A stretch of 64,000 nucleotides of DNA from Anagrus nilaparvatae (taxonomy: Eukaryota > Arthropoda > Insecta > Hymenoptera > Mymaridae): assembly GCA_022575985.1 (NCBI GenBank), contig JAKSXM010000263.1:9962001-10026000 (forward strand), written 5' to 3'. The notes below the pieces were generated by a model, which had not been told where the DNA came from, ran no database searches, and was given only the letters and a program-made list of their open reading frames with translations. Position numbers and translations under genes: made by a program. Shown in pieces: positions 13,869-41,728 of the stretch; position 1 is the stretch's first letter, and every line of letters begins with the position of its first letter.

Positions 13869-14789
13869 TGTTACGATTTTTTGATTATTATCTTATTTAA
13901 TTTTAATTAATAATTTATATAATTTATTTAAAAGTACTTTAATTTTTTAATAAGTGAATGTAGGGTTATTGTGAATCTATACTTTAATATAAAAATATAA
14001 TTTACTATACTTATATATATATATATATATACCATATATATACATAAGTATATGATTATAAATTCGTAACTTTAATACTTTATTTGCCTATTTTTATACT
14101 TGTAACTTATTGAAGTTACTTGTATCCGGGAAGGCGTGTTTTTCTATGATTGAATTAGCAAACTTGGTGTTAATTGATAGCTGAAAATAGAATTGGATAG
14201 ATAAAGAGGAAGACAAATAAAAACACTTTTAATTTAATACAACAACCAATAAACCAAAATTACTATTTATTGATAAATGCAAATATAATAAAAACTCAAT
14301 AAACTAATTACAACGATTAATAATATAGCTAAATAAGTATAATGCATAATATTTTAACTAACCATAAACTTAATATTTTCTTTAATAATAATATAACGAC
14401 TGTTTGATAATTTATAATTTTATAAATTATTACAATATCGCGAAACTAGCCAGTATCAAATTACTGAAATAACGGAAATAACTGAGGTAGCTGAGGTAAC
14501 GAAGTGAGACGAGTGAGGCCGAGATGACAAAAACTACTTCTATATATACTGATTGATAGTTGACGTGTTTTTTTGACATTCTTAATTAAGAGGGGTAAGC
14601 CCGCTGTCCAAAATCTTGTAGCGTCTCGTTGTATCCTTTCTTAATAATTACTTCTCCGAAGTCCTCGTTAATTCAATTAGCAACTTAATTTGCATGTAAA
14701 CTGCTTCTGTTCATAGCTGCCTTTCTAATTATATAAAAATCTTTCAATTTTTACAGGATTGCGTCAGCTGACTTTTTCCCATCGTAACA
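13869..14789 (-). repeat. 3' LTR of element A
   Basis: It starts TGTTACGAT and ends ATCGTAACA, a perfect 9-bp terminal inverted repeat. It contains an AT microsatellite near 14013-14040 and is intact. Its inner edge abuts the polypurine tract, which identifies it as the 3' LTR of a minus-strand element. Confidence 0.92.
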
Positions 14790-14802
14790 CCCTCGCTCTT
14801 CT
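14790..14802 (-). promoter_or_regulatory. polypurine tract of element A
   Basis: The minus strand reads AGAAGAGCGAGGG directly against the LTR, preceded by a run of eight T. A purine run after a T-run is the usual second-strand priming site of gypsy elements and retroviruses. Its presence shows that the LTR is joined to internal sequence and is not a solo LTR. Confidence 0.75.
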
Positions 14803-15561
14803 AAAAAAAACTCGTGTAGAGTTTTTCAGCAAAAATAAAAATTTTTGTAAATAAACTTTTTAGACTTGTTTTCTTTTTGTAGTTTTAGCGTCAAACTCGG
14901 TATATTCAATTTACATTTTATAAATAATTAAAGATTCTAACAAAAAAAAATTAATTTAATCGAACTCAGATTTGCATTATACTTTTTTAACTCAGATTCT
15001 ATATAAACTCAAACTAAAATTTTAATTTTACAACTTTTCTTATGAACTAATACATTTCCATACAACTTTAAAAACATAATATTTTTTAAAAGTTTTGAGT
15101 AAAATTCTCCTAATTTTACTTTTATCCTATATTCCCTTCTCCTTATGAAAAAAAATGAAGGCATTTTTTTAAAAAATAAAAATATTACAACAAATATTTT
15201 TATTAATAACTAATTATAATCTAAACTTAATTTCCAATTATATACAAAAAAATTTTTTATCTTAATAAAATTCAAGAATTTCAAAAAAAATAATTTTGAA
15301 TTTCCCGCTTACTTTCTATAGTATATGCCTTTTAACATATACTAGTACATTCGTGTGTATGTGTCGACCGGGTACTATACTATAGTTTTTGATGCATTTA
15401 AGATCACCTCGTGGTTTTTATTTACTTCCGCTGCACTCTTGGAGTTAACAGGTTGCTTTAACAACAAATTTATTAATTACAAAAAATTTATAAGTGAAAT
15501 TGTGCTTAATACATTGTGAAAAGTGAAAGTGACTATTGTTTAATAAAATATTAAAATAATT
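14803..15561. promoter_or_regulatory. upstream region of the antisense JmjC gene
   Basis: No ORF. It holds A/T-rich DNA, a GC-richer patch at 15350-15450 with GGGTACTATACTATAG, and the probable 5' untranslated region. In element coordinates it is the last segment before the 3' LTR. The exact transcription start cannot be read from sequence. Confidence 0.4.
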
Positions 15562-18500
15562 ATGGATCCAATTACCGGACAAGTAAGTACAATGTTTTGA
15601 TTTTTGTTTATAGGTTATACATAACCCCTTTCAATAATTTTATTAACAAAAAAGATATAACTTTTAATTACTTACTAGAACATTTTTCTTATTGAAAAAA
15701 AATTAACTTATAACCTAACTTATTCTTAAGCAAGAAAATTTTAAAATTAATTTAGGCTTCAAATAAAAAGTTTTATTTTCAAAATCTCAGCATATTTTCT
15801 CGTATGCTGAGATTTTTACATATAGAAAAAATATATATATTTTTTTTTTTTTTTGAACTTAAAAAAAAATTTTATTTTATTTTTAAAAATCTCAGCATAT
15901 TTTCTCGCATGCTGACATTTTTTTAACCTATAAAAAAAAATATATTTTTTTGAACTTAAAAACAAAAATTTATATTTTACTTTAAAAAATCTCAGCATAT
16001 TTTCTCGCATGCTGACATTTTTTTATCTATAAAAAAAAAATATATTTTTTTGAACTTAGAAAAAAAATTTTTATTTTATTTTTAAAAATCTCAGCATATT
16101 TTCTCGCATGCTGACATTTTTTTATCTATAAAAAAAATATATTTTTTTTTTTTAACTTGGAAAAAAAAAAATTTTTTATTTTATTTTTAAAAATTTCAGC
16201 ATATTTTCTCGCATGCTGACATTTTTTTAACCTATAAAAAAAAATATATTTTTTTGAACTTAAAAACAAAAATTTATATTTTACTTTAAAAAATCTCAGC
16301 ATATTTTCTCGCATGCTGACATTTTTTTATCTATAAAAAAAAAATATATTTTTTTGAACTTAGAAAAAAAATTTTTATTTTAAATCTCAGCATATTTTCT
16401 CGCATGCTGACATTTTTTTATCTATAATTATCTTGGAAAAAAAAAATTTTTATTTTATTTTTAAAAATCTCAGCATATTTTCTCGCATGCTGACATTTTT
16501 TGTCTATAAAAAAAAATATATTTTTTTGAACTTAGAAAAAAAATTTTTATTTTAAATCTCAGCATATTTTCTCGCATGCTGACATTTTTTTATCTATAAA
16601 AAAAATATATTTTTTTTTTTAACTTGGAAAAAAAAAAATTTTTTATTTTATTTTTAAAAATCTCAGCATATTTTCTCGCATGCTGACATTTTTTTAACCT
16701 ATAAAAAAAAATATATTTTTTTGAACTTAAAAACAAAAATTTATATTTTACTTTAAAAAATCTCAGCATATTTTCTCGCATGCTGACATTTTTTTATCTA
16801 TAAAAAAAAAATATATTTTTTTGAACTTAGAAAAAAAATTTTTATTTTAAATCTCAGCATATTTTCTCGCATGCTGACATTTTTTTATCTATAAAAAAAA
16901 TATATTTTTTTTTTTATCTTGGAAAAAAAAAATTTTTATTTTATTTTTAAAAATCTCAGCATATTTTCTCGCATGCTGACATTTTTTGTCTATAAAAAAA
17001 AATATATTTTTTTGAACTTAGAAAAAAAATTTTTATTTTAAATCTCAGCATATTTTCTCGCATGCTGACATTTTTTTATATATAAAAAAAATATATTTTT
17101 TTTTTTAACTTGGAAAAAAAAAAATTTTTTATTTTATTTTTAAAAATCTCAGCATATTTTCTCGCATGCTGACATTTTTTTAACCTATAAAAAAAAATAT
17201 ATTTTTTTGAACTTAAAAACAAAAATTTATATTTTACTTTAAAAAATCTCAGCATATTTTCTCGCATGCTGACATTTTTTTATCTATAAAAAAAAAATAT
17301 ATTTTTTTGAACTTAGAAAAAAAATTTTTATTTTAAATCTCAGCATATTTTCTCGCATGCTGACATTTTTTTATCTATAAAAAAAATATATTTTTTTTTT
17401 ATCTTGGAAAAAAAAAAATTTTTATTTTATTTTTAAAAATCTCAGCATATTTTCTCGCATGCTGACATTTTTTGTCTATAAAAAAAAATATATTTTTTTG
17501 AACTTAGAAAAAAAATTTTTATTTTAAATCTCAGCATATTTTCTCGCATGCTGACATTTTTTTATCTATAAAAAAAATATATTTTTTTTTTTAACTTGGA
17601 AAAAAAAAATTTTTTATTTTATTTTTTTAAAATCTCAGCATATTTTCTCGCATGCTGACATTTTTTAACCTATAGAAAAAATATATTTTTTTTGAACTTT
17701 TTTAAAAGAAAAAATTTTTATTTTATTTTTAAAAATCTCAGCATATTTTCTCGCATGCTGACATTTTTTGTCTATAAAAAAAAATATATTTTTTTGAACT
17801 TAGAAAAAAAATTTTTATTTTAAATCTCAGCATATTTTCTTGCATGCTGACATTTTTTTATCTATAAAAAAAATATATTTTTTTTTTTAACTTGGAAAAA
17901 AAAAATTTTTTATTTTATTTTTTTAAAATCTCAGCATATTTTCTCGCATGCTGACATTTTTTAACCTATAGAAAAAATATATTTTTTTTGAACTTTTTTA
18001 AAAGAAAAAATTTTTATTTTATTTTTAAAAATCTCAGCATATTTTCTCGCATGCTGACATTTTTTTAACCTATAGAAAAAATATATTTTTTTTTGAACTT
18101 AAAAAAATTTTAATTTATTTTTAAAAATCTCAGCATATTTTCTCATATGCTGACATTTTTTACATATAGAAAAAATATATATATATTTTTTTTCTTTTGA
18201 ACTTGAAAAAAAATTTTAATTTATTTTTAAAAATCTCAGCATATTTTCTCATATGCTGACATTTTTTACATATAGAAAACACATATATATATCTTTTTTT
18301 TTGAACTTATGAAATTTTAACTTAATTATAATTTAAACTAATTGACAAATTTTTATTTTTAGCCCTTGTTTGAAAGATTTAGTAGAACTGAATTGCTTGT
18401 GAAACCTGGTTATAACATGACAACTATAGCTTCATACCTAGGACAATCTAAGAATAAGGAACTTCAAGAAGCATCCTGCATAAAGGTATTTATTATTATA

Positions 18501-20139
18501 TTTATGTATATTTTGTTTATAATAATGTAGTTATCATAATTATTATTATTATTATTATTATATTATATAATTTTTTTTGTTTTACTCTACTGGTTTTAAC
18601 TTATTTCCTTATTTAGTTCGCAGCTTCGGTCAACGTTGTTGGATTTGAGGGGAAGAAATATGTACCTCTTCTTAAGCGTGATCATTTTCACCGTGAATAT
18701 TTTGAAGAGCGTGCTGTAGGTTTGCATCGCCTTTCTTTTTACCACGTAAAACATCGATATCGTGGTGATCGCTCTGGGCTAACTTCCACTCTCAGCCGTG
18801 ATCTGCCCTTGTCTAGGAACGAGTCTCTTAATGATGCTGCTATAGCTACAGCTGCTCTGGACCATCGTGCTCGAAGTAAGCGGTCGTTTTTAATGGCTCG
18901 GGATATTCCTGTTCCCCTGGACTTATCTTTCATTAGGTTATATGAAAATGACACCGCCAGTGACATGTTGTCTTATGCCATGAAGCCTACTCCTGGTAAT
19001 AAAATTTTTAGAATAAAATCTATTTGCCTAATAATATTAATGTTATTTATTAAATAAATATTTTGTTATTTTGTTTCAGGTATGAATGCTTCTATGTTGT
19101 ATGTTGGTAATCCCGGTTCGTCTACTGTCCTCCATATTGAACCTGGACAGTTTTGCTCCTTAAATACCCTTTTACGAGGACGTAAGGCCTGGCGTATTAT
19201 TCCTGCCAGTTACATGGAAAAATTTATGGCTTTATACCGTTCATTTGGCTTAAGCACTTGCGGTAGGACTGACTGTGTTCCAGGCTCCTTATGTCAATTT
19301 TGTGGCTGCCGATGGGTTGGTGCCCATTCTCCAGTTTTTTATTTATCTTCTGAATTTCTAACTGCCCATGGCATAGAACATTATGATTTTATTCAACATC
19401 CAGGCGACACAATCCTTGTAAACCCTACTGTAGGCCACGAAATAGTTAATCTGGATTTTTGTGTGGCTGAGGCTCGAACTCTTCTACCTCTTATTGTTGG
19501 TGGTAATCGTGAAGAATCGGAATGCTGTCCTTGCCGTGATGAAGAGTATGGTGTTTATGGGCGGCAGCGAATAGGGCTATCTAATCCTGGCCTCATTATT
19601 GAAATCCCCAAGAAAAATCGATGTCCTAAACCGGAATGCTGTAATGGTTTTTGCCCAATCACTAAAGACTTTCATGCCCACATGAGAAATGTGCATGATG
19701 CTTACAAGTGCGAAATTTGTGAACAACAATTTGCGAATAATGAAAACCTTACTAGGCACAAGGCTGATATCCATGAAGGGGTCACCATCGTATGTTATCC
19801 ATGTGGCAATCCTGGTATTAAAAGAATTAGTAAGAGTCATCACCAAATAGGCAAGAAACACTTATTAAAATGCCAACAATATTTATCTGAAGACCTGCCT
19901 TTTTTGTCTAGTGTGCCTGTATCTAGCGAAAAAGATAGGAAAAAACTATCTAAATTGCTAGGAAAGTAAGTAAATTTTATTAGTTAATTATATATCCTTT
20001 TTTTTTTTTTTTTTTTAATTTTTACTAAAAAAAAAAATTTTCTTTTTGCAGCCTCCCTTTCATCAAGCCAGATTCGGCGGACTGGAGTCGACTTAGATCC
20101 TTAGTTGAGGAAAACTTTTCACATTTTGATGAATTCTAA
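15562..20139 (+). CDS. JmjC-domain protein with C2H2 zinc fingers, five exons, antisense inside element A
   Basis: Exons 15562-15582, 18363-18485, 18617-18995, 19080-19965 and 20052-20139 join in frame at GT/AG sites to give 498 residues. The JmjC fold is recognised from a YVGNPGSSTVLHIEPGQF segment, an LLRGRKAWRIIP segment and FIQHPGDTILVNPTVGHE. The iron ligands H193, E195 and H294 are present, as is the family Asn/Lys-rich context. A Cys cluster lies at about 235-252. Three zinc fingers follow near 356-380, 385-406 (a classical C-x2-C-x12-H-x4-H) and 413-435. JmjC proteins of the KDM4/JMJD2 type are Fe(II)/2-oxoglutarate histone-lysine demethylases in the nucleus; the substrate here is unknown. 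It is antisense to gag-pol-env and lies between the envelopes and the 3' LTR. Intron 1 holds a large satellite array. The start is chosen because ATGG opens the only frame leading into exon 2. Confidence 0.85.
15775..18310. repeat. satellite array in intron 1 of the JmjC gene
   Basis: About 26 tandem units of 84-109 bp share the core TCAGCATATTTTCTCGCATG followed by CTGACATTTTTT. The core is a dyad: TCAGCAT and ATGCTGA separated by 10 bp. The spacers are A/T homopolymer mixtures around TATATTTTTTTGAACTT. Units of different length alternate, giving a higher-order period near 465-485 bp. The outermost units have variant cores (CGTATGC, CATATGC), as array edges often do. The repeated 62-64-residue minus-strand ORFs across it are by-products of the repetition. 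Confidence 0.95.
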
Positions 20140-20303: not shown

Positions 20304-20628
20304 AATTTTATCTAATTGCATCTAAAAAGCTTTTTTATTATTTTTTTTTTTTTTTTTGTGTGCGTGCTACTTTCATCCCAAAAAAAATTTTATTGTTAAA
20401 TTTTTTTTTTTTTTTTATCACATTAACTAGTTACTTTCGTCATTTTTACCCCTTCTATTTGATTGAAGTTTTACTGCTACTTGATTAGAAAGCTGTTGTA
20501 GTAGCTTACTTCACTAGTTTATTTTCGCTGCTCTGATCACTTGCTTGTAGCCTTCAGTACTCAAAAGGTTCAGCTGAAACTTTTGTTCTTCGCTTGTTAA
20601 AAAAAAATTTTTATTTTAAAATTTAAAC

Positions 20629-21160
20629 ATGGAAGTTCATCTTCGGGATCATCCTGGCCAAGACGTTACTCATATTACTAATATGAAGAATATGAATTTA
20701 ATTGTAAGTTATTTAAAAAAAAATTATTTGAATATTAAATTATTTTTGTTAGACTTCTTTTTGTTTTATAACAATATTTATTTTATCAAAATTAGCTGCA
20801 TGATTTTTCTATTACTTTTTTTTTTTGAATATTTTTATATTGTAAATTTATTTTTGTTTTAGTGGGATTACTGCCGCATCTTGTCTTTTTACATGGGTGC
20901 AAACCCCTTCACCTGGGTGCTACGAAGAGTCCAAGATTACCAATATCCCGAAGACGATTGGTGGTGGAATCTTGTGAGTTTTATTTCTTATTATCTTAAA
21001 AAAAAAATTTTGATTTATTTACTTTTATTAATTATTTTTAATTTTATTTATTTTCTAGTTGTGGGAACGTGAAACAAGATGGGAGCTAGGTATTGGTCGC
21101 TGGGCTCCTCCACCGCCTGAGCCAGAATTTCCTCCAGGGAATATGGATATGGTTGATTGA
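20629..21160 (+). CDS. 95-residue Trp-rich protein, three exons, antisense inside element A
   Basis: Exons 20629-20703, 20863-20973 and 21059-21160 join in phase 0 at ATT|GTAAGT, AG|TGG, CTT|GTGAGT and AG|TTG. The product has ten Trp, including a WWW cluster (DDWWWNLLWE), then GRWAPPPPEPEF, and is acidic at the C-terminus. No signal peptide, membrane span or known domain was recognised. An AATAAA at 21202-21207 would end the transcript. It lies in the same direction as the JmjC gene, 490 bp after its stop. The match of splice phases across two introns is good evidence for a real gene, but its role is unknown. It may be an adaptor or a virus accessory protein. Confidence 0.65.
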
Positions 21161-21300
21161 CGATGTAACTTGTAATTAAATTTTGTACTGACCAGGTAAA
21201 AAATAAAAAACCATTTTATTTAAAAGAAAAAAACTTTGTCCGCAATTATTTTTTTTTTGTCTTCTTGAATTACTTTAAAACTATTACTTAACTTCCTTTA

Positions 21301-22029
21301 CTAATAATGTATAAAATGTTCCTTTACTTGAATTAGATTTTTGTAATTAGAATATTGGCTATAACACCTATAGCAGTTTTTGATTGTTCTCGGTGACCAT
21401 AATATTGTTCTACAGCTAAGGCATCCTGGATACCGGTATTTCCAAACCATGCCGTGCGTTATTGGGTACAACTTCCAGTTTAGAATACTTAAATTCAGCG
21501 CTTTTTTACAACTTTTACATAAGTACTTGTTAGTACCTCCTACTATATAACCCTTATTTTCATTATTTTTAATACAATAAAAATATTTGTATTTACTTGA
21601 TTTTTCTGCGACCGGTATATTCCAAGCGTACCTTTCTAATAACTCTCTGGTGACCCACTTAGCCTGGTCCTTTGCACTTTCCGTCCCTTTATGTCCTATC
21701 ACTTTGTCTATTTCTACTATTGCCTCTGATAAAATTGCCAGAAATTGTCTTGGGTCCCCATCCTTGCTTAACAGTGGCGTCATAACTTCTGCTGCTGTAG
21801 AAAATACATCGTAGTCACCTGACACAAGTAACTTGTTTATTTGCTTTAAAAGCGCCTTTTTTGATACATGACGCAAGGCTTTAATTAACCTTTTTAATTT
21901 ACTAGGATACTTATTTTTTTTGTCTTTGTAAATTGAACATAATCCGGGTACTGCTTCTTTGAATAGTTGCAAATCGAAAACTGCCATTATGTTTAAAATT
22001 TTTCCTGTAACAAGAACGTTTTTATACAT
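21301..22029 (-). CDS. Cys-pair accessory ORF of element A, 242 residues
   Basis: This is the last sense-strand ORF of element A, just downstream of the F-type envelope. Residues 15-140 are predicted helical and charged. The C-terminal part has pairs CKSC, CLSC and CYRC at about 172-220, resembling a zinc-binding module. Trp and aromatic residues are frequent there. There is no signal peptide and no family was recognised. The frame is intact, in contrast to pol. It is convergent with the Trp-rich antisense gene, leaving 140 bp between the stops. It could be a regulatory or nucleic-acid-binding protein of the element; this is inference only. Confidence 0.6.
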   Translation of the reverse strand: MYKNVLVTGKILNIMAVFDLQLFKEAVPGLCSIYKDKKNKYPSKLKRLIKALRHVSKKALLKQINKLLVSGDYDVFSTAAEVMTPLLSKDGDPRQFLAILSEAIVEIDKVIGHKGTESAKDQAKWVTRELLERYAWNIPVAEKSSKYKYFYCIKNNENKGYIVGGTNKYLCKSCKKALNLSILNWKLYPITHGMVWKYRYPGCLSCRTILWSPRTIKNCYRCYSQYSNYKNLIQVKEHFIHY

Positions 22030-22094
22030 TATTTTATTTTTAACCTATACTTAATCCTTATTTACTAATTCCAATTCCTTTTCCTTATTAGCCC

Positions 22095-24224
22095 TTAATT
22101 TGGTGAATCTATGCAGCCCTCCATGGGATACTGTTCAATAGGATTATATACTTTATTTCCTTTCATTATTTTTATTATTAGTAAAGACATGTTTATCAGA
22201 GTTAGACCAAAGGTTATTACTAATATAGTTCCAAACTTGTGCTCCTCCAAAACGGTTCTCCAGTTTGTTTTAACTACTGGTTTTTCGGTAGAAAAAACCA
22301 GACTCTTTTGAGTAGTTAAAAATTTAGCTATATTACTTACAATCAAATTACCTTTGGGGATAATCAAGTTTGGTTTTTTATTCCCACTGCCCTTGTAAAC
22401 GAGTGAACCCACCGTAATTTCGCAAGAAGATGGTAGATTTACAACACCAAATCCTGATAATCTGTTAACTTGCGAATATCCATTGCACTTAATTTTTACC
22501 TTGGTCTCTTCCACCATTGAATACAACACTTCTCCTTCCACTACTTCAAGAACTGACTCAATGGCGAAACCTTCCTCCTTTGGATAGGTCATTAAGTCCC
22601 TTACTAGCAATTCTGTTTCGCAATTGGCCTTTAGGCTGATGACAGGAGCTACCTTTTGATAAATATTTTCTGACCTGCAGTCAATGCTGTTCCCCTTTTC
22701 TTGTTCTGATAGGAAGAATGACCTGTGCCCTGACTTGTCTACACCTAAGTAATCATTATTATAAATAACTTTAGAAAAAATAACATTGTAATCTATATCG
22801 GTGAATGATGGTAATCTGTGTAACTTGTAAAGTGAATATTCCTCTTTTTGAATAGTTGGTACATTCACCATAAAAGCTTTTTTTTTTTTTTTTTTCCCCT
22901 TCAAGAAGGGGCCTTTTTCGTAGGACGAGGAGAATGCATTTACGCATACCATACACGCGTACTGTATGGTTATGTGGGACTCAACCTCAAATTTGTATCT
23001 GGGGTTGCCCAGATATACACAATTGAGGAATTACAAAACCCACTAAACTCCCCACCCTCCTGCATTTATTACAATATCATAGAATCCGGACCGGGACTCC
23101 CTGTTTAGGTATTACTTCGGTCCGGAAACAATGCAGCCCAGGCATTTCTTCGCCATACCCTGTCAATAAAGGAGGAGATTTTCCTACGAGAGGAAACCTT
23201 CCTCCTTTTTTCAAATCAGTGTCGCCCGTACTTACTCTGCCACACTGTACCAGTTAGCGGCACTGCGCAGCATTTCCGGGACGACTACTTCCGGCCTCCA
23301 TTCATCGAAGGGCGGTCGCCCTTCAGCGAAGCGAGGACACCCAAAAAAGGTGTGCTCAGCGGTATCCAGCTCGCCCGGGCAATGCAAGCATTCCGGAGAT
23401 GTCACCTTGCTCCACTTGAAAAGCATATCGCGGAAATAACCGTGGCCAGTTAAGAACTGTGTGAGGTAGAAGTCTACCTCTCCATGATCACGGTTCATCC
23501 AGCTTTCCAAATCGATGATAAGGCGGTGCGTCCAACGTCCCCTCGGGTCACCATTCCACCATACATTCACCATAAAAGCTATAGTCCTGTTGTTTAACCT
23601 TACTACCTTAAAATCTACTACGAAATTGCACTGATCTACCGGTAGTAACTCTTCATTAAAAAGTTTCTTTAAATGCCCTTTTATTCCTACCTCTATTACC
23701 TCGTCTATTTTATTAAAAAATTCCTTCGGTGTCTCCTTTCTAGATATAGCTACCATAGCTGTAGCTAAATAATCAAATTCCTTTCCTATCCTTATGGTGT
23801 CTTCTAATGTAACGTTGTTTAGTGATAACTCCGCATAGGCATTTCTAAAACTCTTCTGGGCTTCATTTACGAAATATAATGCTCTAGGGTTTTCCGTAAA
23901 TTGCATGTGAGTTACATTTATTAATTTTCCAAAGTTTTCGTTTTCTTCGATGGCTATCTCTTTTAATGCTGAGGTGTATTTGAGGCTATTTACTACTAGA
24001 TCACTAACGTTTCCTTTTACCATACTTAGGTACTTCAAAAACACCTCATTAATTATTTTAGTATCAACCAAAGTAAAAATAATAAATAGATCATTTATAA
24101 TTTTCATTTTGCCTACTCGTTCGAAAACTATTCCTGGGTTGTTTTCTATTGTTAATACCTTTGTTCTATTCATGTCTGCACATACTGTAGCTGTTAATAT
24201 AATAATTCCCAAAAAGTACTGCAT
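22095..24224 (-). pseudogene. second envelope gene of element A, baculovirus-F/errantivirus type, broken by an R1-clade insertion
   Basis: The frame opens at 24224 with a signal peptide (hydrophobic residues 3-16). It continues as a helical ectodomain with several N-glycosylation sites. The second half (22952-22095) has the Cys pattern and YSLYK...LPSF context familiar from baculovirus F and gypsy envelopes. It ends with one membrane span (about residues 246-266 of that half) and a short tail. Proteins of this type are class I membrane-fusion glycoproteins. No RxxR furin site was seen. The coding sequence is split by 684 bp of an R1-clade LINE plus an 18-bp target duplication, so the hybrid ORFs on either side run into LINE sequence. 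Apart from that insertion the two halves look open. Confidence 0.7.
22879..23562 (-). mobile_element. 5'-truncated R1-clade LINE copy inside the F-type envelope
   Basis: The minus strand matches the last about 685 bp of the R1-clade element at 62764-63448, including the C-terminal CCHC-like motif (CLHCPGELDTAEHTFFGC) and a 17-base A tail. The 18-bp sequence ACATTCACCATAAAAGCT occurs at 22861-22878 and 23563-23580, a clear target duplication. The copy differs from the long one at a small number of positions and gains a stop where the long copy has Tyr. Confidence 0.93.
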
Positions 24225-24426: not shown

Positions 24427-26461
24427 TTAATTAAAATGTCTTCTTTCTCTTTCTTGCTCTTGGACTAAATCTTGGTTACCGATAGTTAACCCTAATAAGG
24501 GGTACATCGGTGTTCCCTGATTTGTTTCCTCTTGCAATACAGGTGCCGTTGGTCCTGTATCATTTACTTGCTCTTGTTCTCCCGATGGCACCTGTTTCCT
24601 TCTGTTATTTGCTTCTTGTCCTAAATGAATTAGAAGTTGGGTAACTGAATCCCACACAGCTCCCAACAAATGTAACGAAACTCCATATTTATTATATAAG
24701 GTAATAGTATGGATGGCGGTATCTGCACAAAATTTGATTAGTCTAGCTATCATTATTAAACCTAGAATACCTGCTGAAGCTGTGCCAAATGCCATAAATT
24801 TTCCCCAGAACTGTTCTTATGTTGATTGGATGATCTTACTGATGGAATCTGCATCTAACAAGAAAGCAGGATACAACTTGTCTCCAGTTATGTTCTGTCC
24901 CATCATACCTCTTGCTACACTGTTCAATACAGCAGATTTTTCCAATGGGAATCTCATGTATTCTTTAAGGCTCTTCAACTGGTCAGCGGTGTATATGCCA
25001 GCTTCAGCTAAATTTTTAGGGTCTACATATTTCCAGGTAGCTTGTGTACCCGGCTGTAAGACCTGAGGCTTCTTTGCTTCAGAGATGTCAGGTGAAAATT
25101 TGAACCATGTTTCACCTAAAAAGAACATGCTGGGTACCAAATTATTACATTCTACAGATGTACCAGTTTTAGTTAGTATATGAGTTCTTTGAGCCATAAA
25201 GTATTCTTCGTCATCTTTGTACACCGGGAGTTCCTGATAACAGGATGTTGTTTTCCGATATTTTACTGGTACGCTGATACATTTTATGATGTTCACGGAT
25301 TCTCCCGAGACCAATCCGACAAAGCCTGGACCTCCAACAACCTGGTAAGCAAAGCTAGCTGGATCTAGTATTGCTAGACTTAAGGCATTAGCTATTACTT
25401 TCTTTTTTAAATTGCACTTCTGTAACATAACATCATGATATAGATTTTTTAATTGTATTTTATGGTGTTTTTCTACATATAAAAATTTTGAGTTCATGTA
25501 AGCCATTAAGTCTAAATTTTCAGGTGATATTGAATCTTGCACTTCCAAGTACTCAGGATTCTCCATTTCAGCTATAAAAATGCGTGGGTCATCTGTCCTG
25601 GTGAATTCATTCGAGCAGGCTGAAAATTTACCTTTCGCAGTAAAAGCAAACATAATTGAAGACTCCAAAGCATATATTGGTCGTTCCGGTAATTCTGGAT
25701 CTATTATCTTGTCAACTGGACCAGCATACAACTTTGAATACTTATCTGCGCAAGGATCTCTTGGAGCAGCATTCCAGAATGCATAACCACCATACAGATC
25801 AATACATTGTTCTTAGTTTGCATTTTATTCCTGTATTCAAGATCACATTGTTGTTATCGATGTCTACAGTGGCTTCATAGTCTTCTAAGGTAACTTTTAT
25901 CCATCCATCTACCACCACTTCACTCCAGGTACCGTATGGATCAGAATAATAGCCATTCATACAGCTCATGCCTCTGTCGCTCCGATGTCCTGCCAATTGA
26001 ACGGGCATTGATCTGGAATTATTAGGCATTAAATTAGGCACTAAAATTTGATTTCTAAAATGAAAGTTTAACGTATTATGCATTGTGTCACATTGTAACC
26101 GAGTTACATGTTCAATATACGAGATTTTTCCTCCTGGTATGCCGGATATTCTTGTTCTTTTGTACCAGGCTGCATCACAGTAACTTACTTCTCTGGTAAC
26201 TTCCACTTTGCATAGTTTTACATGCACTTTTGCATAATAGTTAAGTTGCAGTAACGCTATTTTTGTCTTTTCGACAAAAACTTTTGGATTCATTGCGACA
26301 TGACATTCTCCCACATCAATTAAGGAGAAAGTAGATATGTTATTATACTGCTGAGCACAGTCAAAGGCTATCATTGATTTTTCTGCTCCATGGGTACCTG
26401 AAATTACGATTATTACCAAAAACACGTACAGATTCATCTGTAAACAAATAATATTTATCAC
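24427..26461 (-). pseudogene. first envelope gene of element A: chuvirus-like (Jingchuvirales-type) glycoprotein
   Basis: Three pieces are read: 26461-25799, 25731-24817 and 24795-24427. The first has a signal peptide, then IAFDCAQQYNNISTFSLIDVG and a KIALLQLN segment, and later YYSDPYGTWSEVVVDG; these are hallmarks of chuvirus-type glycoproteins found as LTR-element envelopes in arthropods. The last piece carries the membrane segment (AGILGLIMIARLIKF) and a hydrophilic tail. The pieces are separated by a frameshift near 25795-25815 and by an in-frame TAA at 24817-24819. Family members are membrane glycoproteins thought to mediate entry. The gene follows integrase, as an envelope should. As it stands it cannot give a full-length protein. 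Confidence 0.75.
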
Positions 26462-26515: not shown

Positions 26516-27380
26516 TTATTCTAAAGGAAATTTAGGCTTAATATATGAATGCTGTAACCTATTTCCATTTACGACGCTAAATTTATTTTTTCCTGTTTTT
26601 ATTTTTACATTTCCATTTCTATAATTATTTATTACAGCAAATGACCCTTTATATTGAGCCTTTAATTTTCGTATTTTACCTCCTTGCAATAAGAAAACAC
26701 TTTCACCAATTTTGAAAATGTGTTCTAATACAGTTTGATCGTAACGTTCTTTTGACTTTTCTTTGGCTTTGATAATGTTTTCTTTTGCAATTTTTTGTAC
26801 TTTATTTAATGTAGTTATTAAATTAGTTAAATAAGCATCTACAGTGCCCTCATTTTCAACTGGTTCTTTTATTTCAGATGGAGTTCTAGCAATTCGACCA
26901 AACATCAATTCAAAAGGAGTTGCTATAGTGGATTCATGCACCATTGAGTTGTAAGAAAACGTTGCCAACTCTACGTAGTCATCCCAGTCTTCCTCGTTGC
27001 CATTTACGAATACTTTTAAAAACTGACCAAGAGTATGATGCATTCTTTCCACAGGATTTGACCTTGGTGTGTAAGCACAAGTCCTTATCTGCTTGATTTT
27101 GAACTGCTTGGCTACTGCGGCGAACAGTTTTGACATAAAGTTTGCCCCCCTGTCCGAGACCACTGTTTGGGGAGCCCCAAACACAGTTATGTACCTCTTG
27201 ACAAATGCATCAGCTACTGTACTGGCTTGTGAATCTGGTAATGGCACTGCAACGCTATATTTGGTCAACGTATCCTGCATGGTAAAAATAACAGTATTTA
27301 ATTTTTTAGTTGTAGTTAAAGGTCCTACTATATCGATACTTAGTTTCTGCCCTGCTTGCGTAGGAGTGTCAGTTTATTTT
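26516..27380 (-). pseudogene. integrase core and C-terminal part of element A pol
   Basis: The frame includes SIDIVGPL (first Asp of the DDE triad), VVSDRGANF (second Asp) and NPVERMHH (Glu). A GPY-like C-terminal segment (KAQYKGSFAV...) follows. This is the catalytic core that inserts retroelement DNA. The zinc-binding N-terminal part is in another frame upstream, and the join lies at about 27355-27385. The ORF from the first Met starts at 27280, but homology begins further upstream. Confidence 0.88.
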
Positions 27381-29580
27381 TAACTTTTCTTCTTACCAAT
27401 TTTTTTAACTGACAGGTTAAACACTGTCTAATGTAATCTTGAATTTCGTCTCTCATATTTTCCCAGCTGTACTTGGCCCTGAGACGTTTATATGTCTTCA
27501 AGAATGCACGATGTCCAGAAACTATAGTATCATGAGCCTCCTTGATCAATGCCTCTCTCTCAGATGGCTGAGGCACTCTCACCTCTCCTAAACAAACTAT
27601 GATCTTGGTTTCCTCATTATCTTGTAAACTTTTCTTTAATTTTCTAAGGATGTCTAGCCACTCGATGAAATTAATCCTGTTTGATTTGGCTATGCTGAAC
27701 GACTTAATTCCATATTCCTTTAACAGAGTTTTTAAATTATTAAATAATTTTGAGATATTTTCACTTACCTCTGTCATAGAAATAGGGTCATTTTCCCTAA
27801 TAGGCAATAAAATGTGATATCTACTACCTATTTTGTCCCTATTATAGACAAAATTATCAGCCTTTACTAAGTCCCTAAAATTATTTAATTCTGTAGTATT
27901 TAAGTCAGCACTTGCAAAAGGCAAGTCGTCTAATATTTCAGGATTATTTAATTCTTGTCCTACCACATCTGCATTAAAATCAAATGTATTATTTGCTGGA
28001 CTACTGGTGCCTACTTCAACTTCCTCCCTGTTATCATTTTCTGCTTCAGTTGGAACTTTTTTTTGTTCAGCTAGCGTATTTTTCTTCTTTTTTCTATTAG
28101 GCATTAAAGCTTGAATTGCCTCTTGATATTTTTGACTCTGACCTGCCATTCTTGTTTGCATTCTTTCAGTAATGCCAAGTATGCGTCTTTTCTTTCTTAA
28201 CTGTATTTCCTCTGCCTGAAAAGTATAAATTTTTGACACTCTTACAGGTGTTGCTTCAAAATATAGTACAGGATTTCTTGATAAAGCATCGGCATTAACA
28301 TTACTAGCTCCATCTTTAAAAATAAATTCATAATCATAGTCTGCTATCCTTAGCCTCCATCGAGCCACCCTTGAGTTAGGATCCTTTTTTGATTGCATCA
28401 AACTTAAAGCTCTATGATCACTAACTAAATAAAATTTCTTATCATACAGATAAGGTCTAAAATATTCAACACCCCATACGACAGCAAGTGCCTCCTGGTC
28501 CGTCACCGAATATTTTCGCTCTGCATCATTCAGGACTCTTGAAGCATATGCTACTGGCAAATCTTTACCAATTTCACCTTGAGAAAGCACAGCACCTAAA
28601 GCTACCCCGCTGGCATCTGTTGTAAGGACAAAATCACGACTGAAATCTGGATACTGCAGGATTGGAGCTTCACACAGCTTTTTCTTTAAAATTTCAAATG
28701 CCTCTTGAGCTTCGTCACTCCAAATGAATTCTTGATCTTTCTTAAGCAAAGATGTAAGTGGCTTAGCAATTTTAGCAAATTGAGGAATTTGTCTCCTGTA
28801 ATATGATGTAATTCCTAAAAATTGTTTAACGTTTTTAGGTGTAGCTGGCACTGGAAATTTTTCAACTGCTTCAAATTTCTTTGGATTTGGTTTTACTCCA
28901 TCCTTAGAAATGACATGTCCTAAATAAGTCACTTCTGTTTGCAAAAAGAAACATTTTTCTGCCTGCAACTTCAGATTGGCTTCTCTTAACCTCTTCATTA
29001 CTTCTTTTACCAATTCTAGCAGTTTTTCTAGAGTTTTAGCATGTATCAGAAAATCATCAATGTATGCTATTACTCCTTCTAAATCCCTGAATAGCATTTG
29101 AATCAACCGCATAAAGCTACTTGGACTATTCTTTGCGCCGAAGGGTACCCTAGTGTATTCATACAACCCAAACATCGTAGCAAATGCTGTTTTATGCCGG
29201 TCCTTTTTGTGTATTAGGATTTGGTGGAACCCAGAACTCAAATCGAGTGAGCAAAAGTACTTTGAGCCGTTTATGCTGTCCAGCAGGTCCAATAAATTTA
29301 GTAAAGGATACTGGTCAGAGATAGTTTTATCATTTAATCGCCTCAGATCCAAAACTAAACGATGTTTTACTATTCCCTGGCTGTTTGGTTTCTTCGGTAC
29401 CAACATTATTGGATGGCTATAGGATGAATGAGATGGAGTAATTATACCTTCTGCCAACAGCTTATCCAATTGCTCCTTCAACTCTTCTCTTAGCAAAGGT
29501 GAAATTCTATACATTCTGGAAGTAATTGGCACGTCATCGACTGTAAAAATTCTATGTTGAAACACATTTGTAAAGGACAA
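27340..29580 (-). CDS. reverse transcriptase, RNase H and integrase zinc domain of element A
   Basis: The 746-residue ORF has gypsy-type RT motifs: HPIMLVPKK, RLVLDLRRLN, FCSLDLSSGFHQI, YTRVPFGAKNSP and the catalytic VIAYIDDFLIHA. RNase H follows with VLTTDASGVALGAVLSQ and later VSDHRALSLMQ. After a charged linker of about 170 residues comes an HHCC module (HDTIVSGHRAF...CLTCQ). It copies the genomic RNA into DNA. Its N-terminus overlaps the upstream ORF in another frame, with the frame change at about 29575-29583; its C-terminus ends at the frameshift before the integrase core. The RT core itself is intact. Confidence 0.9.
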   Translation of the reverse strand: MSFTNVFQHRIFTVDDVPITSRMYRISPLLREELKEQLDKLLAEGIITPSHSSYSHPIMLVPKKPNSQGIVKHRLVLDLRRLNDKTISDQYPLLNLLDLLDSINGSKYFCSLDLSSGFHQILIHKKDRHKTAFATMFGLYEYTRVPFGAKNSPSSFMRLIQMLFRDLEGVIAYIDDFLIHAKTLEKLLELVKEVMKRLREANLKLQAEKCFFLQTEVTYLGHVISKDGVKPNPKKFEAVEKFPVPATPKNVKQFLGITSYYRRQIPQFAKIAKPLTSLLKKDQEFIWSDEAQEAFEILKKKLCEAPILQYPDFSRDFVLTTDASGVALGAVLSQGEIGKDLPVAYASRVLNDAERKYSVTDQEALAVVWGVEYFRPYLYDKKFYLVSDHRALSLMQSKKDPNSRVARWRLRIADYDYEFIFKDGASNVNADALSRNPVLYFEATPVRVSKIYTFQAEEIQLRKKRRILGITERMQTRMAGQSQKYQEAIQALMPNRKKKKNTLAEQKKVPTEAENDNREEVEVGTSSPANNTFDFNADVVGQELNNPEILDDLPFASADLNTTELNNFRDLVKADNFVYNRDKIGSRYHILLPIRENDPISMTEVSENISKLFNNLKTLLKEYGIKSFSIAKSNRINFIEWLDILRKLKKSLQDNEETKIIVCLGEVRVPQPSEREALIKEAHDTIVSGHRAFLKTYKRLRAKYSWENMRDEIQDYIRQCLTCQLKKLVRRKVKNKLTLLRKQGRN

Positions 29581-31409
29581 GGGTTCTCCAGTATATGAAA
29601 TACATCTGCATTTTCTTCTAATATTTTCTCAACAACTTTCTTTTCCTCTTCATTCAAGTGGCCTAAATTTGACATTTCCTTTACCTTATCAATTCTTTGT
29701 TCAGGTGTTAACTCCATGTATAAGACCCTTTCTGTATTATTTAGTTCCTTTTTGACCTCATTTATTAATTCTTTGATTTGCTCTAAAAAATGCATGTTAT
29801 TTTGTAAATTATCCATTTCAATGATTGTACTTAAATTATCAAATGGCTCTATAAATTCGTATAACTTACACTGATTTACTTCATTTACTAAATTACTAAC
29901 TATTGCCAAAAAGTCACTTTTACAAAATACCTTTTTTGTGATCAACGTTTCATTTACCAAACCTTCTAATATTTCAAGATGCTCCATACATAAGTCCTCA
30001 TCCTTTTCGACTTCTTCCTCTACTGAATTTTCAATGCTGCTTTCATTTGTATCCTTACTTGATCTACAAGCGCCTGCATAACCCCCCTGATACAAATTTT
30101 TATTTAATGGAGGCTTAAAATTATTTTTATCATAAAATTTTAACTGTATATTATGGTATTTTGCTTTATTTTCACCACTTTTATTTTCTAATGCCTTATT
30201 TGTATTATTTTCTATACTAGCTCTTTCATTATTTAATTGATTCATAACAAAATAAATTATCCACAACATTACAAAATTTAGTAATTTTATTATTGCTACA
30301 AAATTACTTGCAAGAAAATTCATACATTCTAAAATTTCTGCAGTATTGTTATACACAACTGTAGTTTTTTTATCGACCACTACAGCATCCTTGTTTGAAA
30401 AATTTTCAAACATGGGTCTTTTATTTTTAACTTCATCTACAGTTTTCTCTTCTACTGTAGGAGCCTCATTTGAAAAATTTTTAAACAAAGGCCTTTTATT
30501 TATAATCTCATCTGCAGTTTTCTCCACTACTGCAGGAGCCCTACCCGAAAATTCTTCCAATAAAGGCTTTTCATTTATAAACTCATCTGCAGTTTTCTCT
30601 ACTACAGGACCTTTTTTGGAAAAATTTTCTAAGCTATTTTTACTATTTAATACCACTTCTGCAGTTTTCTCCGCTACTGCAGGAACGATGTTTGAAAATT
30701 CTTCCAATAAAGGCCTTTTATTTATAAACTCATCTGCAGTTTTCTCTACTACAGGAGCCTTATTGGAAAAACTTTCTAACCTGGTTTTATTATTAAATGC
30801 CTCTTCTGCAGTTTTCTCTCCTACTGCAGGATCCATGTTTGAAAATTCTTCCAACAAAGGCCTTTTATTTATAAACTCATCTGCAGTTTTCTCTACTACA
30901 GGAGCCTTATTGGAAAAATTTTCTTTCATGGGTTCATTATTTTGCATTTTGCTTGCTTTACTTAACAACTTATTTGCACCTTTTAATGCTACTAAAATTT
31001 TTTTCTTTAAACTATTATCCCTACTTATTACTTTCTTTGCAGTTTTACCACTCTTATAATTCTTTATATTTTTAACTTTTACTTTTAGAGTAGGAGATTT
31101 TTTTCTTTTAACCTGTTCTCCCACTCTTATTACCTGGATTATACAGTCTTCCTTGTCTTCTCCGGCCTTTACTTCTTCTGATAAAATTTTTAATATCTCG
31201 TTTTTTGACTGGAAGGGGTACTTGTGTCCTTGAAGCACTAAACAGCGTTCGTCAAAATATAACCTTGCGTTGTTGCCGTCTAAAAACCTGTTTCCTATTA
31301 GCCCTGTTTCATCAATTGGAAAGTTATTTTCTACCACATGAAATTTTGTTAAAATTCCGCAAATTTTTATTTCTATGCTTCCCAATGATTTGACTGCAGG
31401 ATCTGAAAT
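29490..31409 (-). CDS. protease C-terminal half and repeat-rich linker of element A pol
   Basis: The frame starts after a TGA at 31410-31412. The first about 60 residues contain a retropepsin-like GLIGNRFLDG motif. Residues 157-354 consist of eight repeats. A hydrophobic patch (LNFVMLWIIYFVMNQL) follows, then an acidic region and an ELTPEQRIDKVKEM segment typical of the stretch before gypsy RTs. The frame then leaves homology where the RT ORF begins. A 500-residue insertion of this kind between protease and RT is unusual. Confidence 0.65.
   Translation of the reverse strand: MSDPAVKSLGSIEIKICGILTKFHVVENNFPIDETGLIGNRFLDGNNARLYFDERCLVLQGHKYPFQSKNEILKILSEEVKAGEDKEDCIIQVIRVGEQVKRKKSPTLKVKVKNIKNYKSGKTAKKVISRDNSLKKKILVALKGANKLLSKASKMQNNEPMKENFSNKAPVVEKTADEFINKRPLLEEFSNMDPAVGEKTAEEAFNNKTRLESFSNKAPVVEKTADEFINKRPLLEEFSNIVPAVAEKTAEVVLNSKNSLENFSKKGPVVEKTADEFINEKPLLEEFSGRAPAVVEKTADEIINKRPLFKNFSNEAPTVEEKTVDEVKNKRPMFENFSNKDAVVVDKKTTVVYNNTAEILECMNFLASNFVAIIKLLNFVMLWIIYFVMNQLNNERASIENNTNKALENKSGENKAKYHNIQLKFYDKNNFKPPLNKNLYQGGYAGACRSSKDTNESSIENSVEEEVEKDEDLCMEHLEILEGLVNETLITKKVFCKSDFLAIVSNLVNEVNQCKLYEFIEPFDNLSTIIEMDNLQNNMHFLEQIKELINEVKKELNNTERVLYMELTPEQRIDKVKEMSNLGHLNEEEKKVVEKILEENADVFHILENPCPLQMCFNIEFLQSMTCQLLPECIEFHLC
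30320..30917 (-). repeat. eight tandem 24-25-residue repeats within pol of element A
   Basis: Units follow the pattern FSNxAPVVEKTADEFINKRP then LLEE. Odd and even units alternate between two versions (PVVEKTADEF and PAVxEKTAEE), suggesting duplication of a two-unit block. At the DNA level the period is 72-75 bp. The repeats keep the reading frame. Confidence 0.9.
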
Positions 31410-31640
31410 TCATATTAGCTTAACTATTTCATTTTTACAGATTTTTACCTCATCCGGCACTGCTTTTTGCTTCAATAAATTCGCGCTGGCTCCTGAATCC
31501 AAGAGGTAGTCAAATTCTTTGTCTAGACTGGCAGAAGATAAGAAGACTGTTGGCGCGTTGCTATTTCTACTTAGATAGATTGTGTGTTCGATGTACTTGG
31601 AGCCTCTTGATTCGCGCTCATCGGTTGGCTGCTGCCGTTT
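31410..31640 (-). pseudogene. protease N-terminal half of element A
   Basis: The frame upstream of the TGA contains FDYLLDSGASANLL, with the DSGA active-site motif of aspartic proteases at 31488-31499. The in-frame TGA at 31410-31412 separates it from the C-terminal half. The end of gag overlaps it in another frame, as expected for gag-pro frameshifting. Confidence 0.75.
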
Positions 31641-32604
31641 CCCTGATTATTTTCTTCTGCCCTTCCTGTATTGGCGGGCCTTGATCTGCAAAAACGAAAA
31701 AACCTTTTCTCTTACAGTTATGGCATTCCATTTGCTGGCGCTTAACTATCCAGTCCGGTTTGTTCGGATTACCCGGATTGGTCCAACAATTTTCCTTGAC
31801 ATGACCATTCTTTGAACAATGGATACACTTTAGTTTTCCTCTATTGTCCTTTTCACTAGCCTGTTGCTTTCTTCCTTCTACAATTTTTGGCAACTCCGGA
31901 CATAGAAGAGTCGTGTGGTCTTGTCTAAGGCATAAAAAACAATAATTATTATTTGGAGTGGTATGCGTACTTACAACTTTTATTTCTTCTGTTTTTGGCG
32001 TTTTTGCTTCGTCATATGAGCAAGACTCTCTTTCTACCACGATGGCTTCGTTAAGAGTATCTGCAAAAGTAGCATATGACATTAGCCTCGTTCTTATTTC
32101 TGTTCTCATGCCTTTCAAAAAGAACCTAAGCTTATCTCTGTCTAACGTACTGTCCTCCAGTGGCCTCCCCTCCAATTTTGCTGCCTTCTTTATTTTTCTC
32201 CCTAACTCCTTTATTTTGTTGGCAAATAACACGACCTTCTCTTTTTCTCCTTGTCGGACTCTCGCCAAATCCCCTCCTAATTCATGCGATGTTTTTGGAT
32301 TTCCAAATGCAAATTCCACAAAATCGATGACCTCTTTAATTGACCTGAAATTATGTCCTATTGCCGCTTTCGCTGCCTCCCCCTTAAATCTTAAAAGAAT
32401 TAACGGGGCAACCTCGATTTCGTTTTCTACGGGGATCATACCTTTGGCTCTGCCACACCCTATTACGAAATTTTCTACCTCTTCTTGAGAGCCAGAAAAT
32501 TCCGGAATGGTGTTTATTGTGTCCTTGATCGAGAAAGGCCTAATTTTAGAGAGAGAGAGAAGAATTTTGTGTATATGACGCGCCTGTGAACTCGTTTGTG
32601 TCAT
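31618..32604 (-). CDS. Gag (capsid and nucleocapsid) of element A
   Basis: 328 residues. Residues 25-190 resemble a gypsy-type capsid (IPEFSGSQEEVENFVIGCGR, then a helical region with DKLRFFLKGMRTEIRTRLM). Two CCHC knuckles follow, CFLCLRQDHTTLLC and CIHCSKNGHVKENC, and an incomplete CHNC. It packages the genomic RNA. Its frame overlaps the upstream ORF by 58 bp. The Met is the first in frame, but capsid homology begins close to it, so part of the N-terminus may come from the upstream frame. Confidence 0.85.
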   Translation of the reverse strand: MTQTSSQARHIHKILLSLSKIRPFSIKDTINTIPEFSGSQEEVENFVIGCGRAKGMIPVENEIEVAPLILLRFKGEAAKAAIGHNFRSIKEVIDFVEFAFGNPKTSHELGGDLARVRQGEKEKVVLFANKIKELGRKIKKAAKLEGRPLEDSTLDRDKLRFFLKGMRTEIRTRLMSYATFADTLNEAIVVERESCSYDEAKTPKTEEIKVVSTHTTPNNNYCFLCLRQDHTTLLCPELPKIVEGRKQQASEKDNRGKLKCIHCSKNGHVKENCWTNPGNPNKPDWIVKRQQMECHNCKRKGFFVFADQGPPIQEGQKKIIRETAAANR

Positions 32605-33607
32605 ATGTGTTCCTTCTTAAACAATTGCCAACGTGATACGTACCACACCTTCTGCATACCTCTGGCTGCCTTATTTGTTCTGCCGTATGGTACATTGTGG
32701 AGTATGGCGTGTAATGGTTAGTTGCCATTGGTGCTGCCCTATAATTAGTACTGCTGGCCAAACCTGTAAAATTATTGTTTATTGTTTTTTGGCCTAGCTC
32801 CTGGATGTGCGCTGTGACTCCCATAGTTGTTGTAGGTATTTCAGTTGCGTCTGGCTGTAAAATAAATTTTTTTGTACTTTTTACACTTGGATTTACTGGA
32901 GTTACAAAACTCTCTCTGTCATCTAGTAAACATAAAGTATATTCTGCGGCTAACTCTTCCAGGACTAACTCTGGGCCTAAACTACTGTTAAATAAATCAA
33001 TAAGTACTCTTAGCGTCTCAGCGTCCCTTAATGCTTTGTCCAGTACGTCTTTGTTGTTTTGTGGTAGATATGTCTGCAACTGTGAAGCTGCTGGTACTAA
33101 TTCTGTTTCCACATTTGTGTCTAATAACCTGTAAGCTAAATACCTTAATAAATCTTTTACAGATGGTCTTGACTTGGATTCTGGGTAATTGCAATGACGC
33201 CTTAACACGTCATAAATCCTGCTGTCAACATAAACTTTTAGCGAGGAATCATGGCTACTTGTACCTGTTATTATGTCAATAATTTCTGCAGGATGTATGC
33301 TACTTGCCCTTAGTTCCTGAATCATACTTGCCAATGTGGCGTCTTTTATTACCTCGTCTAATACCTCTTTTTCTATTCTGTTCTCTAACGCTTCAATTAG
33401 CTCTTGCCTTTGCTCAACTGACGATGTAGCTTCCTTGTTTTTGGTTTCATTAAAATGTTTTTTGTACCATTCTAAAACTTCCTCTATCGTTGTGTCTACA
33501 TTTATTTCAATAAAGTCCTTCGCATATTTACATAGCACGTTATATCCTTTCTTTGCATTAACGTCTTTTTCTACTATTTTCTCTGCTAATACTCTTAAAA
33601 GACTCAT
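32546..33607 (-). CDS. 5'-most ORF of element A, 353 residues (Gag N-terminal region or separate protein)
   Basis: The ORF begins 80 bp after the primer-binding site. It is helical and charged through residue 240, then Thr/Asn/Pro-rich, and ends with a truncated knuckle CRRCGTYHVGNC. No domain was recognised. Its stop TAA (32546-32548) falls directly after a CT run that gag reads in another frame. It may be a matrix-like N-terminal part of a longer Gag or an independent leader protein. Confidence 0.65.
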   Translation of the reverse strand: MSLLRVLAEKIVEKDVNAKKGYNVLCKYAKDFIEINVDTTIEEVLEWYKKHFNETKNKEATSSVEQRQELIEALENRIEKEVLDEVIKDATLASMIQELRASSIHPAEIIDIITGTSSHDSSLKVYVDSRIYDVLRRHCNYPESKSRPSVKDLLRYLAYRLLDTNVETELVPAASQLQTYLPQNNKDVLDKALRDAETLRVLIDLFNSSLGPELVLEELAAEYTLCLLDDRESFVTPVNPSVKSTKKFILQPDATEIPTTTMGVTAHIQELGQKTINNNFTGLASSTNYRAAPMATNHYTPYSTMYHTAEQIRQPEVCRRCGTYHVGNCLRRNTYDTNEFTGASYTQNSSLSL

Positions 33608-33686: not shown

Positions 33687-33698
33687 GACGAGCCCCCA
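33687..33698 (-). promoter_or_regulatory. primer-binding site of element A (tRNA-Pro)
   Basis: The minus strand reads TGGGGGCTCGTC four bases inside the 5' LTR. These 12 bases are complementary to the 3' end of tRNA-Pro, the same primer used by murine leukaemia virus. The match stops after 12 bases. The position fixes the 5' end and strand of the element. Confidence 0.85.
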
Positions 33699-40696: not shown

Positions 40697-40774
40697 TTCG
40701 GATGATTCATCACTACTAAAATCAGATTCTGTTAATAATGCATTTTTTGTATCTTGAATATTTTTGCTTGTCCT

Positions 40775-41724: not shown

Positions 41725-41728
41725 GTCC

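Follow-up and report, generated by a model that had tools for sequence, protein, structure and literature searches.

The means by which animal mobile elements escape silencing by chromatin are still an open question, and the element-encoded anti-silencing cases that we found described are the sequence-specific VANC proteins of plants and, as a proposal that involves another kind of enzyme, the TET/JBP dioxygenases of fungi. The VANC proteins of the Arabidopsis VANDAL elements target short, tandemly repeated motifs in the non-coding DNA of the element, the introns of the VANC gene included, these targets differ among related VANDALs, and binding has been demonstrated in vivo and in vitro (PMC5735166, PMC10398659). 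Fungal DNA transposons carry TET/JBP dioxygenases that likely aid escape from silencing and have been transferred between element lineages (PMC12730594). Retand and other plant long terminal repeat (LTR) elements possess an antisense coding region, located between pol and the 3' LTR, for TRP28-domain proteins, and an antisense gene is named for the fungal element Boty, too (PMC11963269, PMC7264820). With respect to glycoproteins of the Chuvirus/Jingchuvirales type, a clear retrotransposon capture is reported for a Pao element only (PMC10084718). Here we analyze a 64-kb stretch of the Anagrus nilaparvatae genome (the window; the host genome assembly searched comprises 489 Mb), in which an env-bearing endogenous retrovirus carries, in antisense orientation, an intron-containing gene for a JmjC zinc-finger protein. 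Human T-cell leukemia virus (HTLV) likewise has a regulatory gene near its 3' end, HBZ, that is antisense and spliced; it resembles the present gene in these features but encodes a basic leucine zipper (bZIP) protein with no JmjC domain.

We favor, with a probability of about 0.5, the reading that the product of this gene is a self-targeted JmjC chromatin factor, that is, an anti-silencing and autoregulation module with a VANC-like self-recognition. The likeness to VANC consists in an element-encoded factor, motif arrays in the introns of its own gene and targets that vary between relatives, whereas the plant VANDALs have a transposase (VANA), VANC contains DUF1985/DUF287 and no JmjC domain, and the binding that has been shown there is predicted for the JmjC protein (PMC5735166, PMC10398659). 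Pfam scans of the main open reading frames (ORFs) and of exons 3 and 4 of the JmjC gene found neither DUF1985/DUF287 nor a VANDAL transposase, and other domains instead; the JmjC protein, though possibly VANC-like in its mode of action, is thus no VANC. Retand shares the antisense ORF, the predicted DNA binding and arrays of family-specific tandem repeats (PMC11963269) but differs in its TRP28 domain, and the passages concerned mention no env, JmjC domain or palindromic dimer sites (PMC11963269, PMC7264820); Pfam detects no TRP28 domain in JmjC exons 3 and 4 or in two exons of a second antisense gene of the element (gene 2). The fungal transposons likewise are mobile elements bearing a dioxygenase, but the enzymes are DNA-methylation erasers in DNA transposons as opposed to a JmjC protein in a retroelement (PMC12730594). 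A Monjiviricetes-type glycoprotein in a retroelement has its counterpart, too (PMC10084718, PMC7642597), in this case in a Pao element, in contrast to the Gypsy-type element with an antisense JmjC gene found here (PMC10084718). Among the open-licence papers listed, and in the passages of PMC10084718 and PMC13172572, we found no described case of a JmjC or jumonji gene in a retroelement. The layout has plant analogues, and the combination of JmjC, env and clade-specific palindromes appears to be new.

The JmjC gene is antisense to the element and lies between env and the 3' LTR. The initial annotation had assembled it from five in-frame exons into 498 residues with the ligands H193, E195 and H294, and exon reading, exon translation with borders displaced by 1-3 nt at three places, and exon-4 alignment agree on this structure: all splice borders are GT/AG, the phases are 0, 0, 1 and 2, the 1497 nt correspond to 498 amino acids and a stop codon, and the ligands are the HIE at exon-4 residues 18-20 and a second histidine at residue 119. 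At the putative 2-oxoglutarate (2OG) positions of exon 4 stand N and K. Pfam reports a JmjC domain in exon 4 (E=1.1e-15, above the cut-off), as it does for 15 of 15 aligned members of the family, and no family in exon 3. Judged by this profile match and the HxE...H ligands, the window protein carries the signature of a JmjC dioxygenase and is predicted to be catalytic. As for the C2H2 fingers claimed previously, a pattern search locates three in the window copy, and the Pfam zf-C2H2 match (E=4.5e-4) falls below the cut-off; among the 20 members listed, the pattern fits three C2H2-like fingers in 13 and two in 7, the latter including L014, L017, L018 and the LMG clade introduced below. All rows of the 15-row alignment share, without variation, a Cys/His cluster within the JmjC region (C65, C71, C74, C76, H82). 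The proposed KDM4 type is unsupported rather than refuted: the JmjC chains among the sequence matches listed are those of KDM6/UTY, JMJD6 and JMJ14, with no KDM4 chain among the best 60 of 76 and the best 60 of 352 matches, and exon 3, in which Pfam detects no family, shows no JmjN domain. An AG acceptor precedes exon 4 in 5 of 5 relatives inspected, and the proteins P0001 and P0002 terminate in LGK, the ending that the window exon has when left unspliced, as would result from reading on into a shared intron 4, so that the introns of the gene look old. A protein database search yielded 3 matches with exon 4 and 10 with the 15-row alignment, all from ENA contigs, and 79 with a long multi-finger relative, among which P0011 alone is listed with a JmjC domain and the rest with zinc-finger domains. 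Among viral contigs, 62 stretches fit the search pattern, and none of them is a relative.

The gene is not peculiar to this copy. Genome protein searches, in which the best candidates only were scored (133 of 489 with exon 4 as the query and 130 of 369 with env), gave at least 135 matches to exon 4, grouped as 111 clusters, and at least 132 matches to env. Among the matches listed, env lies within 25 kb of 39 of the 111 JmjC clusters, the remaining 72 being without it; in 38 of these 39 it is on the opposite strand on the 3' side, at a distance of 2.7-4.9 kb in 34 of the 38, and in one it has the same orientation. Further LTR copies were checked for the gene: at C79, C1 and C39, where LTR relatives are spaced 17-21 kb apart, an antisense JmjC gene lies between them in the corresponding position in all three cases. 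The C79 and C1 copies are flanked by target-site duplications (TSDs), GTAT and CCCC(C), respectively, and the LTRs of the C1 copy differ by 0 mismatches and 1 gap over 873 bp, which makes this a very young element. Short LTR copies that lack the full JmjC gene exist as well (L004-L012), an observation that the initial annotation had named as one that would speak against it; L004 retains a part of exon 2 and L007 exons 2 to part of 4, and because of these relics the two look like deletion derivatives. The possibility that short JmjC-less copies represent the ancestral state is argued against by the relics in L004 and L007, an argument that does not extend to L005, L006 and L008-L012. The genome also contains related JmjC genes that have several C2H2 fingers and are preceded by tandem arrays (L056-L060, L069-L073), some copies being about 98% alike across contigs, with no env match within 25 kb among the matches listed; this group is a host family or another element. 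A JmjC exon-4 fragment is present in a tandem array with a period of about 0.9-1.2 kb (G000:C62:66759950-66765355).

The gene is under constraint: the ratio of nonsynonymous to synonymous substitution rates (dN/dS), the comparison between copies that had been envisaged at the outset, is 0.08-0.37 in 28 of 28 exon-4 pairs, which share descent and span dS values of 0.03-1.3, several of them near 1. Furthermore, the gene moves as a cassette between elements with near-identical env. The identities of JmjC and env, taken to the window only, correlate negatively (Spearman -0.49; 36 pairs, the window, C79:5524591 and C95:4620151 being omitted of the 39 clusters), and five elements with 93-99% identity in env have JmjC identities of 28, 37, 43, 49 and 75%. 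An example is L001, which matches the window at 89% over positions 14790-15609, at 92% over 20423-22091 and at 98% in env, with no nucleotide match between 15609 and 20423 (setting aside intron-array matches of less than 400 bp starting at 15690-18348). The flanks match and the interior does not: the stretch that begins with intron 1 and extends past the stop codon behaves like a swapped cassette. L001 additionally bears a duplicated, partly lost cassette.

The constraint extends to versions of the protein that lack the iron ligands. Among 41 distinct exon-4 frames, HIE or HVE and the second histidine are kept in 20, with the putative 2OG residues N and K also kept in 19 of these, and DVE occurs in one (L036); 15 frames have lost the ligands, with RTE/RKE/RLE or LMG/LMS/LIS in place of HxE and a tyrosine replacing the second histidine; and 5 do not span HxE, the second site being histidine in 3 and tyrosine in 2. 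In a tree of 47 rows, the two ligand-less groups are separate, which implies two changes, and the best-supported branches still allow one. The very young C1 element holds a gene of the lost type. These clades show that catalysis is dispensable in part of the family.

The second component of the proposed module is a set of palindromes. The motif TCAGCATATTTTCTNNNATGCTGA occurs in 26 copies in intron 1 of the window gene, against 0 expected, and zero times elsewhere in the 64 kb. A survey with exact 7-base arms and 50 Markov controls per stretch took in 32 stretches from 29 loci that share descent, three loci being represented twice; repeated palindrome families were found in 17 of the stretches, not counting a pair of G runs in L001, far above the controls, in which the largest family is 1, or 2 in three stretches. 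Spacers vary between identical half-sites in 13 of the 17 palindrome-bearing stretches. The palindromes are located in introns and gaps and belong to several clades with the ligands and to one of the two without them; given with the JmjC identity to the window, the half-sites are CTCAGCATA (76%), CGCCGTATA (59%), GTGCAGCATA (61-64%), GCAGATCG (41%) and GCAGGTC (40%), with GCGTTTA or GCGTTAA in the RTE clade. The RTE-clade half-site was first noticed in L002, L003 and L078; four further RTE loci, fetched after it was known, were all positive, with 13 sites against a Markov mean of 0.05 (largest 1), and among 18 control stretches 13 have none, L004 has one and L009-L012 have 4-7 each. Across the genome, GCGTTTA-N8-TAAACGC occurs 122 times and the reversed pattern once, and TCAGCAT-N10-ATGCTGA 139 times and its reversed pattern never. 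In the C1 element, nine sites are distributed along its length. In the cases seen, the type of half-site follows the clade of the JmjC gene and not the LTR/env backbone: L018 (C47), with 76% identity in JmjC and 50% in env, has the TCAGCAT palindrome, and L001, with window-like flanks, 98% identity in env and a different JmjC, has none in the 9 kb examined.

Two side observations concern the palindromes themselves. L085 (C62:9857900-9859900) and L086 (C47:3341400-3343400), repeated DNA with no JmjC match nearby among the matches listed, display adjacent sites of the TCAGCAT, CGCCGTA and GCAGATC types, that is, of three JmjC clades, along with a fourth type, GCCGAGC. A further type, CTGTAGT...ACTACAG (and CTGCAGT), is found in L005, L007, L008, L010, L011 and L012, with a period of mostly 150 bp in L010-L012.

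The hypothesis that appears to accommodate these observations is that the JmjC gene belongs, as a conserved accessory gene, to a family of Ty3/Gypsy-type endogenous retroviruses with env. Since the gene is encoded on the strand opposite to that of the genomic RNA, its introns come through reverse transcription intact, and the retention of introns, anticipated in the initial annotation, is indeed seen in a recurrent antisense cassette that contains them. The C2H2-like fingers, three in the window copy, would bind, probably as a dimer, clade-specific palindromes in the gene's own intron and in gaps of related elements; half-sites of 7-10 bp would suit three fingers, and TCAGCATATTTTCTCGCATGCTGA is the candidate target of the window clade. 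In the ligand-bearing clades, the window's included, JmjC catalysis might erase repressive methylation at the palindromes or hydroxylate a protein of the chromatin there, and in the ligand-less clades the protein might work through occupancy or recruitment, in either case to the presumed benefit of the element. Demethylation is not the whole function, because two related clades have lost the iron ligands and stay constrained; accordingly, the earlier idea that the element carries its own eraser against silencing is plausible as to the anti-silencing role and does not explain the whole family.

Several findings weigh against this hypothesis, beginning with the constrained ligand-less clades just mentioned. 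The association of half-sites with clades is in part physical linkage, because the palindromes sit in or beside the JmjC gene. Repeated palindromes of this kind were not found in L001, L024 and L031, in the ligand-less LMG clade (L074, L075, L084) or in the long multi-finger clade (L069-L073), and L017 keeps the TCAGCAT palindrome though just two fingers fit the pattern. Conversely, sites with no JmjC found are present in L009-L012, short LTR copies of which parts of 5.4-6.4 kb were examined, and in L085-L087. The 50 listed of the 122 GCGTTTA sites form 16 groups; going by the matches listed, JmjC lies within 20 kb of 3 groups, env alone of 3 more and neither of 10, and DNA that close to such matches makes up no more than about 2% of the genome; because many sites have no JmjC gene nearby, action in trans must be assumed. 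AlphaFold models of exon 4 reach a mean confidence (pLDDT) of 43 with 4 aligned rows and 44 with 11, and the window copy has no TSD at its ends.

Could the protein, in the manner of HTLV HBZ or of the antisense proteins of Retand, simply be a regulator of the retroviral cycle, not an eraser, that binds the palindromes and tunes its own antisense promoter and the sense transcript? The antisense, spliced gene between env and the 3' LTR, the constraint on the two clades without iron ligands, the confinement of all window palindromes to the protein's own gene and the precedent of Retand antisense ORFs with predicted DNA binding and tandem arrays (PMC11963269) are all compatible with this scenario, but the retention of both ligands in 20 of 41 exon-4 frames, 19 of them also with N and K, would be superfluous for mere DNA binding, and we consider it unlikely, albeit worth serious attention. 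The palindromes might also be unrelated to the JmjC protein, being RNA or DNA hairpins involved in packaging, priming or the supply of small RNAs, or sites for a host factor or another protein of the element. They are perfect inverted repeats able to form hairpins, both arms change jointly between clades, and they occur where no JmjC gene is found; the constancy of the half-site letters within a clade combined with variable spacers, however, fits protein contact over mere pairing, and the half-sites do not track ORF21301, gene 2, env or the LTR, all of which L001 and the window have in common, so that this explanation seems improbable. The long JmjC multi-finger family with no env within 25 kb among the matches listed could point to a captured host gene that is a useless passenger, which is hard to reconcile with the place and orientation kept over many elements, dN/dS well below 1 and repeated exchange, and appears very improbable. 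Finally, an artefact, whether an assembly join or the nesting of a separate transposon within the LTR element, might be suggested by the missing TSD of the window copy but is very unlikely, and chance likewise unlikely, because across the family independent elements carry this antisense gene in the corresponding position (38 of 39 clusters), including the TSD-flanked copies with GTAT and CCCC(C).

The remaining features of the host element identify it as a Ty3/Gypsy-type, env-bearing endogenous retrovirus, on account of the LTR pair, the primer site, the purine tract, the order reverse transcriptase (RT)-RNase H-integrase and env (Table 1). The LTRs are 99.1% identical between 14090-14789 and 34823-35522 and 98.7% between 13870-14097 and 33704-33931, with 9 mismatches over the two aligned pieces of 700 and 228 bp; the full length of about 920 bp is greater than the first repeat pair suggests. 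The LTR-bounded element of the initial annotation stands as regards the near-identical LTRs, the purine-rich stretch and TGGGGGCTCGTC, which would fit a tRNA-Pro primer site; the TSD, as said above, is lacking at this copy. The interruption of the 5' LTR, which on our reading of its sequence resembles a long interspersed nuclear element (LINE), matched no family in the Pfam scan. Two env-like regions lie in this one element (22095-26461, minus strand), a Monjiviricetes-type glycoprotein and a marginal Baculo_F match, and the second is broken by a piece (22878-23564) of the LINE present at 58-63 kb. Gene 2 has relatives in L001 and L002, and two of its three exons, scanned against Pfam, gave no family. 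Beside the element, a second Gypsy-type region (36922-45974, minus strand) has Monjiviricetes_fusion glycoprotein ORFs of its own, and a LINE at 58220-63140 (plus strand), presumably R1-like, encodes an endonuclease, a reverse transcriptase and a weak zinc-knuckle match.

Table 1. Coordinates of the element, the JmjC gene and the palindrome array in the window
Feature	Position	Strand	Remarks
3' LTR	13869..14789	-	ends TGTTACGA...TCGTAACA; repeat comparison
Purine-rich stretch, polypurine-tract-like	14790..14801	-	adjoins 3' LTR
JmjC gene, exon 1	15562..15582	+	MDPITGQ
JmjC gene, intron 1	15583..18362	+	houses palindrome array
Array of 26 palindromic units TCAGCATATTTTCTNNNATGCTGA	15787..18259	+	intron 1; start-to-start spacing 83-106 bp
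JmjC gene, exon 2	18363..18485	+	
JmjC gene, exon 3	18617..18995	+	
JmjC gene, exon 4	19080..19965	+	HIE..H-bearing JmjC domain; internal Cys/His cluster; C2H2-like fingers (three)
JmjC gene, exon 5 and stop	20052..20139	+	
Second antisense gene (gene 2)	20629..21160	+	95 aa, Trp-rich; exons 20629-20703, 20863-20973, 21059-21160
ORF conserved across the element family (ORF21301)	21301..22029	-	56 genome matches
Second env-like region	22095..24224	-	marginal Baculo_F match at 22095-22952
Env-like glycoprotein ORFs	24817..26461	-	Monjiviricetes_fusion (PF24664), Pfam
pol region	26516..31385	-	RT, RNase H, integrase domains in 26516-29580; further ORF 29490-31385, no family assigned (Pfam)
gag-position ORFs	31618..33607	-	Pfam: no family above cut-off
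Primer-binding-site-like TGGGGGCTCGTC	33687..33698	-	adjoins 5' LTR
5' LTR	33704..35522	-	interrupted by ~890-bp stretch, ~33932-34822, with LINE-like ORF

Because a candidate factor, candidate sites and natural ligand-less versions share one genome, the specificity of the protein for DNA and the need for catalysis are directly testable, and swappable finger-site pairs could serve as orthogonal DNA-binding modules. In its boldest form, to which we would assign somewhat less than an even chance, the hypothesis holds that an animal retrovirus family has independently evolved a VANC-like self/non-self chromatin system, in which a swappable antisense JmjC cassette co-evolves with clade-specific palindromic landing sites, some clades have turned into catalytically dead DNA-binding versions, and gene-less DNA collects sites, even those of several clades (L085, L086), and profits in trans. 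Judging by the layout, the element may direct to itself the chromatin tool that it encodes.

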